This document shows positions 29,081-48,553 of a stretch of 50,954 nucleotides of DNA, piece after piece. Under the pieces are notes generated by a model, which was given only the letters and a program-made list of their open reading frames with translations, was not told the DNA's origin and searched no databases. Location of the stretch: contig JAKAHA010000006.1 of assembly GCA_021825445.1 (NCBI GenBank), positions 1-50,954 on the forward strand. The letters are read 5' to 3'. Both the position numbers and the translations under genes were made by a program. This stretch comes from a bacterium (GTDB taxonomy: Bacteria; Patescibacteriota; Microgenomatia; UBA1406; GWC2-37-13). Every line of letters begins with the position of its first letter. The stretch's first letter is position 1.

Positions 29081-29944
29081 ATGGAAAATATTTTACTACC
29101 TTCTTTGGTTACTAGGTTTATAAAACACCTGGAATCACAAGAAAAATCATCTTTTACAATCGTAGCCTATAAGAAGGATCTTGAACAATTTGTAGGATAT
29201 TTATCCTCTCAAGAAGTTGCTGATATTCGTGAAATAAAGAAAAATAATATTGATGGTTTTATTAATAAACTTATCAATGATGGCTATACAAAAAAGTCAG
29301 CTTCAAGAAAATTAAATTCTATTAGAACTTTTTTTAGATATTTAAAAAATGATGGAGTTATCGAACAAAATCCTTCTCTTGACGTGTCTCATCCAAAATA
29401 CATTCAATCGGCTCCAAGAATTTTTTCAAAACTTGAATATCGAGCACTTCGAGATTTTGCTAAAGAAGAACCTAGAACTTATGCCCTAATTGACATACTT
29501 CTTCAGACAGGTATAAAAATTGGAGAACTAGCCGCCTTAAAGATTGAAGATATAAAAGATGCAACTATTCATGTCTCACAATATGGAAAAACCGCCTCTC
29601 GAGATATTCCTTTAAATAAAGCTGTAAAAAAATCAATAGAAGATTATCTTAAAAGTAGACCAGGATTAACAAATAGTGGTCACTTATTTATCACTCGAAC
29701 AGGACACCCACTGTTAATTAGAAATATTCGCCAAATCATTTCTCGTTGCTTTAGAGAGGTGGGAATTGAAAAAGCTACGGTTAATGACTTTAGAAATACT
29801 TTTATCGCCCACCAACTAAGAAATGGTGCCTCAGTTGAATATATTGCCAAACTTGTTGGTCACCGAAGACTTTCGTCAACCGAACGCTTCCTAAATGTCG
29901 TTAAGGAAGAAATCCAGAAGAAAGAAGGATTGGGAGAGCTTTAA
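29081..29944 (+). CDS. Tyrosine recombinase (Xer-like) with altered catalytic residues
   Basis: 287 residues with the Xer layout: a SAM-like core-binding domain (residues about 5-95, 'SSFTIVAYKKDLEQFVGYL...SASRKLNSIRTFFRYL') and a catalytic domain. Alignment to the family motifs shows three changes at the six catalytic positions. The first Arg ('TGLRxxEL') is K146 in 'TGIKIGEL', the His of HxxR is N235 in 'VNDFR', and the nucleophile Tyr is F270 in 'STERFLNV'. R238, H261 and the hairpin K170 remain. Without the tyrosine it should not cleave DNA, so it may be a structural DNA-binding protein. It sits just upstream of dnaA. TATTAT eight bases before the ATG suggests a leaderless mRNA. Confidence 0.85.
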   Translation: MENILLPSLVTRFIKHLESQEKSSFTIVAYKKDLEQFVGYLSSQEVADIREIKKNNIDGFINKLINDGYTKKSASRKLNSIRTFFRYLKNDGVIEQNPSLDVSHPKYIQSAPRIFSKLEYRALRDFAKEEPRTYALIDILLQTGIKIGELAALKIEDIKDATIHVSQYGKTASRDIPLNKAVKKSIEDYLKSRPGLTNSGHLFITRTGHPLLIRNIRQIISRCFREVGIEKATVNDFRNTFIAHQLRNGASVEYIAKLVGHRRLSSTERFLNVVKEEIQKKEGLGEL

Positions 29945-30066: not shown

Positions 30067-31386
30067 ATGTCATCAATATCCTCTTACTGGGATAGTTTTA
30101 TTGAAAAACTAGGAAAAGAAAACAACCCAGTACTATATCCACTACTTAAACAGGCAAAGATCGAAAAGATAACCAATGAAGAAATCTCACTTTCTGTCGG
30201 CAGTTCAGGTGCTTATGATTTTTTAGCAAAAAGAACTACAGAGATTGAGCAGCGATTTTTTAATTTCAGTCAAAAAAAAATTTATTTGGAATTTAGTATT
30301 AAAATACCTGTTAAAAAAAACATTGCTACCCCACTACTTTCTTTTGAGCCAAGTATTGAAGATATTTTTACAAGAGCAGGATTAAATAAAAAATATAATT
30401 TTGATAACTTTGCCGTTTCAACATCAAATCAAGTTGCCTATGCAGCAGCTCAGGCTGTGGTAAACAATCCGGGAAGCGCTTATAACCCCTTGTTTTTATA
30501 CGGAGGAGTTGGTGTTGGTAAGACTCACATTGCTCAAGCTGTCGCAAAAGAGATTTTAAAACAAGATCCAAATAAAAAAGTATATTTTTGTCCTGGAGAT
30601 AATTTTACCAACGAACTAATAGAGTCAATCCGTGAAAAATCAACTGGTCGCTTTCGTAAAAAATACCGCTACTTAAACTTATTAATTGTTGATGATATTC
30701 AGTTTATTGCTGGAAAAAATGCCGTCCAAGAAGAATTTTTTCACACATTCAACTCAATAGCATCATCGGGTGGTCAAATTATACTGACTTCCGATCGTCC
30801 ACCAAGTGAAATAAAAAATCTAGAAGACAGGCTTCATTCAAGATTTTTAGGTGGGTTGACTGTTGATATCCAAGCTCCTGATTTTGAACTTCGATCTGCA
30901 ATCTTATTAATTAAAGCTAAAGAAAAAGGTATCGAAATTGATATTGAGGCGGTTAAAATTATCGCGGAAAGAGTAACTGACTGCCGAGGACTCGAGGGTG
31001 CACTACTTTCTGTATATGCTAAAGTTCTTGGAATTAAAGAAAAAATAGATTTGGAAGCAGTAGAAATGTTTTTTTCAAAAAGTAGTGAAATAAAGAAAAA
31101 AAGGGTTAATCCGGCTGATGTTATAAAAACTGTTTGTTCTTTTTATAATATTAAACAGTCTCATCTTAAAGGTCCATCAAGGGCTGCTTCAATTGCTTTC
31201 TATAGGCAAGTTACTATGTACTTACTTGAAAAGGAGTTAGGGCTGACTTTAATTGAGGTGGCTGAGATGTTAAATAGAAGAGATCATACAACAGCCCTAC
31301 ACGCCAAACAAAAAATCAGCAATTTAATTCTTAGAGACTCTAGTTTGAAGAAAGAGATTGATATAATAACCCAATCATTACTTTAG
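30067..31386 (+). CDS. dnaA: Chromosomal replication initiator DnaA
   Basis: 439 residues. The N-terminal domain I ('YWDSFIEKLGKENNPVLYPLLKQAKI') is divergent. The AAA+ domain has Walker A 'YGGVGVGKTHIAQAVA' near residue 145, Walker B 'NLLIVDDIQFIAGK', sensor 'IILTSDRPPSEI' and the arginine-finger region 'SRFLGGLTVDI'. The C-terminal DNA-binding domain has the signature 'RRDHTTALHAKQKI'. The promoter carries paired DnaA boxes. It is followed by a 131-bp spacer with further boxes and dnaN. Confidence 0.97.
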   Translation: MSSISSYWDSFIEKLGKENNPVLYPLLKQAKIEKITNEEISLSVGSSGAYDFLAKRTTEIEQRFFNFSQKKIYLEFSIKIPVKKNIATPLLSFEPSIEDIFTRAGLNKKYNFDNFAVSTSNQVAYAAAQAVVNNPGSAYNPLFLYGGVGVGKTHIAQAVAKEILKQDPNKKVYFCPGDNFTNELIESIREKSTGRFRKKYRYLNLLIVDDIQFIAGKNAVQEEFFHTFNSIASSGGQIILTSDRPPSEIKNLEDRLHSRFLGGLTVDIQAPDFELRSAILLIKAKEKGIEIDIEAVKIIAERVTDCRGLEGALLSVYAKVLGIKEKIDLEAVEMFFSKSSEIKKKRVNPADVIKTVCSFYNIKQSHLKGPSRAASIAFYRQVTMYLLEKELGLTLIEVAEMLNRRDHTTALHAKQKISNLILRDSSLKKEIDIITQSLL

Positions 31387-31517
31387 TCTACATTGTTTCC
31401 ACTAATCCCCCACATACTTTTTTATCATTTTTCTTTGTCTTGAAAATCTATTCCTTTTTTTATACACTTATGCACACAACCTATTACTACTATATTTAAA
31501 TTAAAAACAATAAAACC
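31387..31517. other. Candidate replication origin segment between dnaA and dnaN
   Basis: AT-rich 131-bp spacer with a perfect DnaA box TTATGCACA (31468-31476) and an overlapping near-match TTATACACT (31460-31468), plus T-rich tracts that could serve as an unwinding element. With the two boxes before dnaA it gives a dnaA-flanking origin arrangement, common in bacteria. Box number is low, so this is a candidate only. Confidence 0.6.
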
Positions 31518-32615
31518 ATGAAAATTCAATTACCTAAAAATGATTTTTTAAAAAAAATAGAATTATCATCTCGTTTTACTTCATCTAAACTATCATCTTC
31601 AACATCCCTTCAAGGAGTTTGTTTGGTTGGAGAAGAGAATAAAATTAATTTTTATTCTACAGATCTAAATTATTATTATCACTCAATACTAAAATATGTG
31701 GGAAATAATAAATTTAAAATAATTATTGAGCCTAAAAAAGTTATTGAGTTTCTATCACTTCTTCCTGATTTAAAGATCGAAATCGATATTAAAGAAAAAG
31801 CGATTGTGATATCTCAAGGAAAAATAAAAGGTCAATTTCCCCTTTTCTCAGATCAAGATTTTCCTTTTCCACCAAAAAACACAGAAGAAAAACAGAAAAT
31901 TAAAACATCTTTTTTTAAGGAGAGCCTTCCATATTTATTTTTTTCTGTATCATCAGATGAGACTCGACCAGTTTTAACAGGAGTTAATTTTGTGACAGAT
32001 GATGAGAATCTTCAACTGGTTGCAACTGATGGTTTTCGACTTTCTCTTTTAACATTAAAAAAAGATCTCCCCTTCTCATCAATGATTATTCCTGCAGGTT
32101 TTTTAATTAACGCACAAAGATTTATTAATAAAGAAACAGAGATAGAATTTAGTTATTTGAAAGAAGAAAAACTTTTAGCCTTTTTTATAGGTGAAAACGA
32201 TATTTATGTTAGGATGATTGAAGGGGAATATCCTCCTTTTGAGAAAGTTATTCCAACTGAAAAAAAGACAACAGTTATAATCGATTCTGAAGAATTTTTA
32301 AGAAGTGTAAAATTAGTTTCTGTTTTTTCAAAAGAATTTTCAAACATCATAATAATGGAGGTAGAAAAAGATTCGGTTAAGTTTATTCCAAAAGTTGGTC
32401 AGGGTGAAGAAGATGTTGTTTTCCAAGAAGCAAAAATAGAAGGAGATAGTCAAAAAATTGCCTTTAATTACAAGTATTTAATTGATTTTTTAAGTCACGT
32501 TCCAAAGAAAAAAATTATAATAGAGTTATTAAGATCAGATGCACCTGTTGTTTTTAAAATAGAGGGTATTAATAATTTTTTTCACATAATAATGCCTGTG
32601 AGAATCCAGGAATAA
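31518..32615 (+). CDS. dnaN: DNA polymerase III beta subunit (sliding clamp)
   Basis: 365 residues, the usual length for three clamp domains. Recognised by 'MKIQLPKNDFLKKIELSSRFTSSKLSSSTSLQGVCL', the domain 2 block 'LPYLFFSVSSDETRPVLTGVNFVTDDENLQLVATDGFRLSLL', 'VRMIEGEYPPFEKVIP', and the C-terminal 'FHIIMPVRIQE' (MPxR/L end). It follows dnaA and is one base ahead of the RNase P-like gene, so both are very likely one transcript. Confidence 0.96.
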   Translation: MKIQLPKNDFLKKIELSSRFTSSKLSSSTSLQGVCLVGEENKINFYSTDLNYYYHSILKYVGNNKFKIIIEPKKVIEFLSLLPDLKIEIDIKEKAIVISQGKIKGQFPLFSDQDFPFPPKNTEEKQKIKTSFFKESLPYLFFSVSSDETRPVLTGVNFVTDDENLQLVATDGFRLSLLTLKKDLPFSSMIIPAGFLINAQRFINKETEIEFSYLKEEKLLAFFIGENDIYVRMIEGEYPPFEKVIPTEKKTTVIIDSEEFLRSVKLVSVFSKEFSNIIIMEVEKDSVKFIPKVGQGEEDVVFQEAKIEGDSQKIAFNYKYLIDFLSHVPKKKIIIELLRSDAPVVFKIEGINNFFHIIMPVRIQE

Positions 32616-32616
32616 T

Positions 32617-33243
32617 ATGGAATCCTTTATTCTTGACACTAATCTATTTTTTAATATTGGAGCAGGTCTTGGTATGGGAAAAACTACTGAAGAAATTGTG
32701 GTTAAGCTAACTAAAGTAATAAAAGAGCTTAAGAAAAAATCAAAAGCTGTTTTTTATATGCCGCCAAGGATAGTTGATGAATTTTTGAGCTTTTTTGAAG
32801 ATAAAGATCAGGAATTTATAAAAAATTTTTTATCAAGTGTGAATATTGAATCTCCCAATCCATCAACTACAAATTTTTCTGGTCAAGTTTTTTATAAGTT
32901 AGTTGAGGATATTCGTAATCGAAGTTATAGAGGGCTAAATATTGCTGAGGAAGAAATTACTAGGGTAGGAGAGATGACATCTGGTAAGAAATTTGAGTCA
33001 AAAAAAGATTTTCAGATCTTTATAGGAAAATTTATTAAAAACTTTCGCGATCGTTATCGAAACGCAACTAGGACCGGTTTTTTGGATAGTGTAGCTGATC
33101 TAGACTTGATTGTTTTATCAAAAGAAGTTGATGGTTTTTTAGTAACAAGCGATGAGGGTGTTTTATCCTGGGGGAGGACTTTTGGTATTAAAGAGATGCC
33201 CGCCTCAGTCTTTCAGAAACGGCTAGAAGATCTTCTGTCTTAG
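32617..33243 (+). CDS. HARP-type minimal protein-only RNase P (UPF0278, PIN domain)
   Basis: 208 residues matching the UPF0278 / 'RNA ligase partner' family, which includes Aquifex HARP, the smallest protein-only RNase P. 'SFILDTNLFFNIGAG...KTTEEIVVKLTKVI', 'VFYMPPRIVDEFLSFF', and 'RDRYRNATRTGFLDSVADLDLIVLSKEVDGFLVTSDEGVLSWG' are the family blocks. The PIN acidic residues would be D7, D157, D161 and D179; the spacing 4 and 18 between the last three is that of the Aquifex catalytic aspartates as I recall them. The long insert at about residues 80-140 is the oligomerisation helix region. It is in operon with dnaN, near where rnpA-rpmH lie in many bacteria. Its 3' end overlaps the convergent gene by 56 bp. 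Confidence 0.85.
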   Translation: MESFILDTNLFFNIGAGLGMGKTTEEIVVKLTKVIKELKKKSKAVFYMPPRIVDEFLSFFEDKDQEFIKNFLSSVNIESPNPSTTNFSGQVFYKLVEDIRNRSYRGLNIAEEEITRVGEMTSGKKFESKKDFQIFIGKFIKNFRDRYRNATRTGFLDSVADLDLIVLSKEVDGFLVTSDEGVLSWGRTFGIKEMPASVFQKRLEDLLS

Positions 33244-33742
33244 AAAGCTCTTCTTCATCGGGAATAAGAGTAGAGACTAAATCTAACATTTTATCAGTGA
33301 TCGTTTTTTGTGGGGTTTCTTGATAAAGAAGGTGGGATGATAGTATTGTGATTAATTTTTTTTTCATCTCTTCTGTTGGGACAACGAGGTAAAGATGATA
33401 AAAATACGGAGACTGTGAAACAACTGTTAAAGTATAAAAACCAAATCTTTTTCCAAAATAAAAATGAGAAAGAGCCTCCCATCTCAAAGTTACTCCAGCT
33501 GCGTCAATTCCAAAGGTTGTAATTTTATTTTCAACATCAGGAGGAGGGGTGATTGTTAAAACGTAAAATATAAAAACAAGAGCCCAGATGGGAATAATTA
33601 AAATTTTATCACCGAAAAAAAATACTATAAGAGACAGTAGTAAAGCCACAGTTAAATAAAATTTAAGTATAAGAGCAGACTGTTTTTTGTATGGGCGCAG
33701 AGGTGCTTTCCAAGAAAATTTTACTTGAGGATTTTCATTCAT
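33188..33742 (-). CDS. Two-helix membrane protein of unknown function
   Basis: 184 residues, not recognised by name. A short cytoplasmic start (MNENPQVKFSWKAPLRPYKKQ) is followed by two close helices at about residues 24-66, then a PH-like soluble part: 'TTFGIDAAGVTLRWEALSHFYFGKRFGFYTLTVVSQSPYFYHLYLVV' and 'EMKKKLITILSSHLLYQE'. That topology (two helices, then a strand-rich domain with a 'G-x-W-x-x-L/I' turn) recalls bacterial PH-domain proteins. It overlaps the RNase P-like gene tail-to-tail. Confidence 0.75.
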   Translation of the reverse strand: MNENPQVKFSWKAPLRPYKKQSALILKFYLTVALLLSLIVFFFGDKILIIPIWALVFIFYVLTITPPPDVENKITTFGIDAAGVTLRWEALSHFYFGKRFGFYTLTVVSQSPYFYHLYLVVPTEEMKKKLITILSSHLLYQETPQKTITDKMLDLVSTLIPDEEELSKTEDLLAVSERLRRASL

Positions 33743-48083: not shown

Positions 48084-48159
48084 ACTCTAATATTATACAT
48101 AAATACAAACATAATGATCAAGTAGAAAGAGCTTGTTACAAAGCTATAAATAATCTTTT

Positions 48160-48553
48160 GGTGGAGATGGCGAGAATTGAACTCGCGTCCGAGAAAACAC
48201 TTCTAAATTTGTTTAGCTTAGAATAGATTATTTTTACTCGATTCCGATCGCTTGTGTAATCAAAGCGCTTCGGAAAGCTATTTCTAAGTTGTGGACGAGA
48301 TCGACTAAATAGTAAGGTCGCCTCGCCTTATTCCGATTGGTTTATCCCCCATATAGATTGAACCGGACGAAATCTAAAGGGAGAAAGTTAGACAGCTTGG
48401 GCAAATGCAAATCTCATTCCTGAGTTTGCAAAAGCTTGATACTCTCTATACTCTTCTGATAGTTTATTATCAGTTAATTTTTTCCGTTTAACGGACAGGT
48501 CCGTCTAAGCCATTTTTAAAAGTGCAAATTTCCCGTCGATGCCTTGCATCCCC
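48160..48553 (-). ncRNA. ssrA: tmRNA (transfer-messenger RNA)
   Basis: 394 nt. The 5' GGGGATG pairs with 3' CATCTCC (including the G3-U70 needed for alanylation). The T arm is GCGAG-TTCAATT-CTCGC, and ACCA is encoded at the 3' end (48160). The 5' part carries GACGGACCTGTCCGT, which fits pseudoknot PK1, ending near nt 70. The tag reading frame follows, and further pseudoknot-like sequence follows that. It lies downstream of smpB on the same strand; together they rescue stalled ribosomes. Confidence 0.96.
48388..48471 (-). CDS. tmRNA tag-peptide reading frame
   Basis: From the predicted resume codon GAT at nt 83 of the tmRNA (about 12 nt after PK1, preceded by AAAAAATTAACT) to TAA: 27 codons, reading DNKLSEEYREYQAF then ANSGMRFAFAQAV. 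A 27-residue tag is long for tmRNA. A shorter tag starting at the GCA of 'ANSG' would put the resume codon ~55 nt from PK1, which is unlikely. The hydrophobic C-terminus (FAQAV) fits a protease-recognition end but differs from the common LAA. Confidence 0.65.
   Translation of the reverse strand, partial: DNKLSEEYREYQAFANSGMRFAFAQAV

Follow-up and report, generated by a model that had tools for sequence, protein, structure and literature searches.

Very few ribozymes are nearly universal, and RNase P RNA is among them; documented cases of its complete loss in bacteria come mainly from the hyperthermophilic Aquificaceae. The window, the whole 50,954-nucleotide stretch of DNA analyzed here, comes from a bacterium whose close relatives, where named, are Candidatus Roizmanbacteria (part of the Microgenomates within the CPR). 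It carries a gene for a predicted protein-only RNase P (HARP) directly downstream of dnaN, and the question raised by this locus is whether HARP has replaced the RNA-based enzyme or acts as its backup. Both possibilities were put forward in an initial sequence-only reading. The evidence below favors replacement: we put at roughly 90% the probability that HARP, with an enzymatic activity that is predicted, serves this bacterium and its whole order as their only RNase P.

Family assignment and conserved residues of HARP

The HARP gene (32617–33243, forward strand) has an ATG start and encodes 208 amino acids. It begins one base after dnaN (31518–32615, +), the gene for the DNA polymerase III beta clamp, exactly as first described; the identity of dnaN was confirmed with Pfam. 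The PF08745 (PIN_5) profile matched residues 4–207 (E = 7.2e-44, 150.1 bits against a cut-off of 27). TIGR03875, the NCBIfam model named "RNA ligase partner protein" for a family also called PIN_5 or UPF0278, scored 151.7 bits against a curated cut-off of 95.3. When the sequence was searched against the PDB, solved HARPs were the only significant matches (E 1e-25 to 1e-18), the best being HARP from a Planctomycetes bacterium (E = 1.2e-25); no other family among the solved structures matched the 208-residue protein. The AlphaFold model was poor (pLDDT 55, from five sequences in the input), and all 29 matches at E ≤ 0.001 in a fold search with this model were HARPs. In a HARP tree, which was built without PIN toxins, the proteins of the order form a well supported branch among HARPs. 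The HARP/UPF0278 assignment that had been proposed over the whole length of the protein is therefore upheld by profiles, by sequence matches to solved HARPs and, as described next, by the catalytic residues, and the tree of HARPs agrees with it.

Residue conservation was assessed by aligning 56 HARPs from the order (including the one studied here) with three from family f15 of the same class and nine known HARPs. D7, D157, D161, and D179 are invariant throughout (56/56, 3/3, and 9/9, respectively), as are R144 and R148 of the spike helix. Within the order, R102, R144, R148, R152, and S158 are identical in all 56 sequences. The four aspartates are equivalent to D7, D138, D142, and D160 of Aq880, where D160 is our own count; the fourth catalytic aspartate of Aq880, in the xDxG motif, is numbered D161 in the eLife 2021 paper. 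The PIN aspartate spacing pointed out at the outset, D157-x3-D161-x17-D179, matches that of the catalytic residues D151, D155, and D173 of PbHARP (PMC9051087), with which these positions align (+4/+18 in both proteins). R144 and R148 correspond to Aq880 R125 and R129, both of which are required for pre-tRNA cleavage, as the R129A mutant is inactive and R125A nearly so (PMC8266387). The spike-helix region (residues ~117–137) is longer than in Aquifex HARP, a feature specific to the order.

By analogy with Aquifex HARP, the protein would be expected to oligomerize. One dimer could then hold the tRNA elbow with R144 and R148 of its spike helix, while the metal site formed by D7, D157, D161, and D179 of a neighboring dimer would hydrolyze the 5′ leader. 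As a counterpoint, pre-tRNA was not cleaved by some of the bacterial HARPs produced in recombinant form (reviewed in PMC10941002 and PMC12153264).

The VapC-like PIN group includes HARP (PMC10941002), and the protein might instead be a PIN-domain toxin or another nuclease with no role in tRNA maturation. VapC folds did match the poor AlphaFold model, albeit very weakly (E 0.1 or worse). Set against this are the invariance of the tRNA-binding arginines, the occurrence of HARP as one copy in almost all genomes of the order, and the restriction of significant sequence and fold matches to solved HARPs (the fold matches coming from the poor model). In addition, no antitoxin gene was seen beside HARP. 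We regard a toxin or unrelated nuclease as highly improbable.

Absence of rnpA and rnpB

The genome that contains the window spans 1,022,352 bases in 33 contigs, is 97.5% complete, and has one HARP gene. The sequence-only reading had proposed searching the complete genome for rnpB and rnpA, and all 1,022,352 bases were covered by our searches; neither gene was found. A profile of eight RnpA proteins from sister genomes, run against all six frames, returned nothing at E ≤ 1, and a profile of the eight sister rnpB genes returned nothing at E ≤ 10. As a positive control, each sister rnpB was held out of the profile in turn and was still recovered with E = 5e-21 or better. The CR-I and CR-V core pair of RNase P RNA, present together in 8/8 sisters, occurs nowhere in this genome. 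Permissive covariance searches with RF00010 (43 genomes: 40 of the order and three of f15) and with RF00373 (15 genomes) yielded only chance-level scores, the highest being 14.5 bits.

The same pattern holds across the order. HARP was found in 44 of 48 genomes, and the four genomes that lack it (80%–90% complete) lack rnpB as well. None of the 48 has rnpB or a convincing rnpA, the one weak rnpA match containing internal stop codons. Because these are mostly metagenome assemblies, the absence rests on its repetition over many genomes. The reverse is seen in nine genomes of the class that lie outside this order (HARP in 0/9, rnpA in 8/9, and rnpB in 8/9). In a class-wide sample of 372 genomes, HARP scored above the cut-off in 48 and rnpB was found in 286, with no genome having both (Fisher p = 5e-37, a value to be read with the caution that the genomes are not independent). 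The 48 carriers comprise 45 of the 46 sampled genomes of this order plus three of family f15. A phylum-wide sample of 379 genomes had HARP above the cut-off in this order only. Another 38 of the 372 class genomes had neither HARP nor an RF00010 match, which may reflect a diverged rnpB, incompleteness, or a third solution.

The former site of rnpA is also informative. In three sister genomes, rpmH and yidC lie 506–596 nt apart and enclose rnpA (rpmH-rnpA-yidC). Ten HARP-bearing genomes of the order have only 2–40 nt from rpmH to yidC, rnpA having been excised; in three f15 genomes the gap is 148–207 nt, again without rnpA. A similar trace exists in Aquifex, where the order is rpmH-yidD-yidC and rnpA is missing (PMC10941002). 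HARP had been described as lying close to the usual place of rnpA and rpmH. This stands insofar as the gene is beside dnaA and dnaN, but rpmH is on another contig, directly before yidC and without rnpA. An insertion of HARP exactly at the old rnpA site gains no support from the gene order: several genera have HARP next to dnaA, but the rpmH-yidC pair is located elsewhere.

The covariance models could have missed an RNase P RNA if it were extremely degenerate. HARP would then be a backup or a specialized (t)RNA nuclease, with the housekeeping function carried by a strongly diverged RNA that the models do not see. Such divergence has precedent, since CPR rnpBs are often diverged (PMC8172020), and many RF00010 matches in the class fall below the Rfam cut-off. 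Furthermore, archaeal HARPs are dispensable (PMC12153264, PMC10941002). Yet the rnpB of sister families was readily recognized, whereas the universal core is missing here; rnpA has also gone, from its operon; and the mutual exclusion of HARP and rnpB is complete in 372 genomes. We therefore consider a hidden ribozyme unlikely and assign it only a small chance. Replacement is favored over backup because rnpA and rnpB are missing throughout the genome and the order and are present in sister lineages without HARP.

The choice of threshold matters in this context. In a 2021 paper, ten circular CPR genomes at first lacked rnpB; with the threshold reduced to 5 bits, the gene was reported in all circular CPR genomes of that study (PMC8172020). 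Such a threshold is unsafe, because our permissive searches gave scattered matches of 8–14.5 bits. Lowering score thresholds until a match appears can create false rnpB annotations and, conversely, genomes of this order will be flagged in error by completeness checks requiring rnpB.

Processing of tRNA 5′ ends is still needed in this bacterium. The genome has 46 tRNA genes, of which eight encode CCA, and its tandem tRNAs are separated by 1, 8, 13, 27, and 29 nt. RNase P could in principle be dispensable if tRNAs were made without leaders, as in Nanoarchaeum, leaving HARP with another role. Leaders are probably short, as many −10-like boxes lie only 9–14 nt upstream of the tRNA. However, the box distances vary from 9 to 53 nt, and tandem tRNAs with spacers of 1–29 nt cannot all be leaderless. 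Taken together, these two observations rule out a general leaderless solution, and we rejected it; a dispensable RNase P has a negligible share of the probability. The window also contains a tmRNA gene (48159–48553, −), and the 5′ end of tmRNA normally depends on RNase P. Hydrogenobacter HARP cleaves a CCA-bearing substrate ten times more slowly (PMC10652100), so the mostly CCA-less tRNA genes suit HARP. They are not an adaptation to it, because those of the rnpB-bearing sister genome G053 are also mostly without CCA.

Gene neighborhood and history of the probable replacement

Conservation of the dnaN-HARP pair had been suggested as a further check, and here the first impression did not hold. 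Adjacency is local: dnaN directly precedes HARP at 11 of 47 loci of the order, largely at the level of genus, and at eight of 47 HARP is divergent from dnaA. The only invariant neighbor lies on the other side. This gene (33188–33742, −) encodes a conserved protein of 184 amino acids, probably a membrane protein, which had no match in a Pfam search. It overlaps the 3′ end of HARP by 56 nt, is convergent with HARP at 47/47 loci, and overlaps it at 45; no such gene was seen next to HARP in f15.

Upstream of dnaN is dnaA (30067–31386, +), assigned because it resembles dnaA loci in sister genomes. A gene for a tyrosine recombinase (XerC/D-like; 29081–29944, +) lies between dnaA and the gene for an S1-domain protein; since the arrangement recurs in many relatives, it is probably a housekeeping Xer. 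In several genera of the order, the dnaA-dnaN block (30067–32615 in the window) that separates HARP from the xer-type gene has the opposite orientation, and dnaA is then divergent from HARP (loci L064, L069, L079, L083, L098, and L100).

The HARP tree within the order broadly tracks family codes, which suggests long vertical descent. We found no HARP in phages or viral contigs, and thus no sign of viral carriage. The order's ancestor probably acquired HARP; rnpB would have been lost after this acquisition, and rnpA lost from between rpmH and yidC.

Family f15 (genomes G060, G097, and G112) also has HARP and lacks rnpB. Its HARP is shorter and nearer to canonical HARPs than that of the order. 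In a tree that is unrooted and has few outgroups, the HARPs of the order and f15 fall on one side of a branch, with the nine known HARPs on the other (support 100/98). In the DnaA tree, the f15 host is placed among rnpB-bearing families (100/99), and a clade of the order plus f15 was rejected (AU p = 0.025), although long branches and few sisters qualify both results. The DnaA placement, together with the differing HARP neighborhoods, suggests either two separate replacements, in the order and in f15, or a single acquisition, after which HARP was transferred between CPR. In f15, HARP lies upstream of a tsaD-like gene, recognized by eye, with a 4-nt overlap (L092:5826–7507, L093:3971–5631). tsaD is a tRNA t6A modification gene, and the overlap suggests a tRNA-processing operon.

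It is probable, with somewhat less confidence than we place in HARP as sole RNase P, that HARP took the place of a lost RNA-based enzyme on at least two occasions in one CPR class, once for an entire order, giving a HARP-only state outside hyperthermophiles and without the Rnl3 ligase. If this is true, neither high temperature nor a ligase accounts for the dispensability of the ribozyme.

Comparison with known HARP systems

The replacement proposed at the outset is well supported; the protein itself belongs to the known HARP family, and the interest lies in the lineage-wide replacement of a ribozyme in the CPR. A 2024 review places HARP in Aquificae, five other phyla, and a few unclassified bacteria, and discusses loss of the RNP for Aquificaceae (PMC10941002). 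A 2019 survey, confined to proteins, reported HARP-only unclassified bacteria, unnamed in its text, and a few HARP-only genera of Aquificae and Nitrospirae (PMC6380272). The later papers covered here, including the available part of a 2025 mining study (PMC12153264), list no CPR among HARP carriers. A full-text literature search, subscription papers aside, combining HARP or RNase P with Microgenomates, Roizmanbacteria, candidate phyla, or Patescibacteria returned nothing relevant beyond PMC8172020.

The closest solved relatives are the HARPs of Planctomycetes bacterium GWF2_40_8 (7e8k/7e8o, E = 1e-25) and Thermococcus celer (7e8j, E = 4e-22), both of which show in vitro activity on pre-tRNA (PMC9051087). 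In archaea, HARP occurs alongside an RNA-based RNase P, whereas no RNA-based enzyme was found in this order. The Rnl3 ligase (TIGR01209) is present in 89% of the HARP genomes surveyed by Seshadri and Gopalan (mBio 2025, PMC12153264). The HARP of that pair is of the same family, but TIGR01209 was found in 0/15 genomes of the order, and a link between HARP and an RNA ligase was accordingly rejected here.

An entire order of small-genome CPR bacteria thus has one HARP and no ribozyme, with the reverse in related orders, which offers dozens of natural replicates in which to study what makes RNase P change its scaffold. The HARP-only state of the order speaks against heat as the reason and against any obligatory tie to an RNA ligase. 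The nearest parallel is with the Aquificaceae. Like Aq880 and Hth1307, the order's HARP is a single-chain PIN_5 protein of ~23–24 kDa with the same catalytic aspartates and spike-helix arginines, and the hosts in both cases are without rnpA and rnpB, with rnpA missing between rpmH and yidC. Unlike the Aquificaceae proteins, to which it is ~30% identical, it has a longer spike-helix region, forms a separate branch, and is encoded at dnaA/dnaN beside an unrelated conserved gene, in a small-genome CPR bacterium that is not a hyperthermophile.
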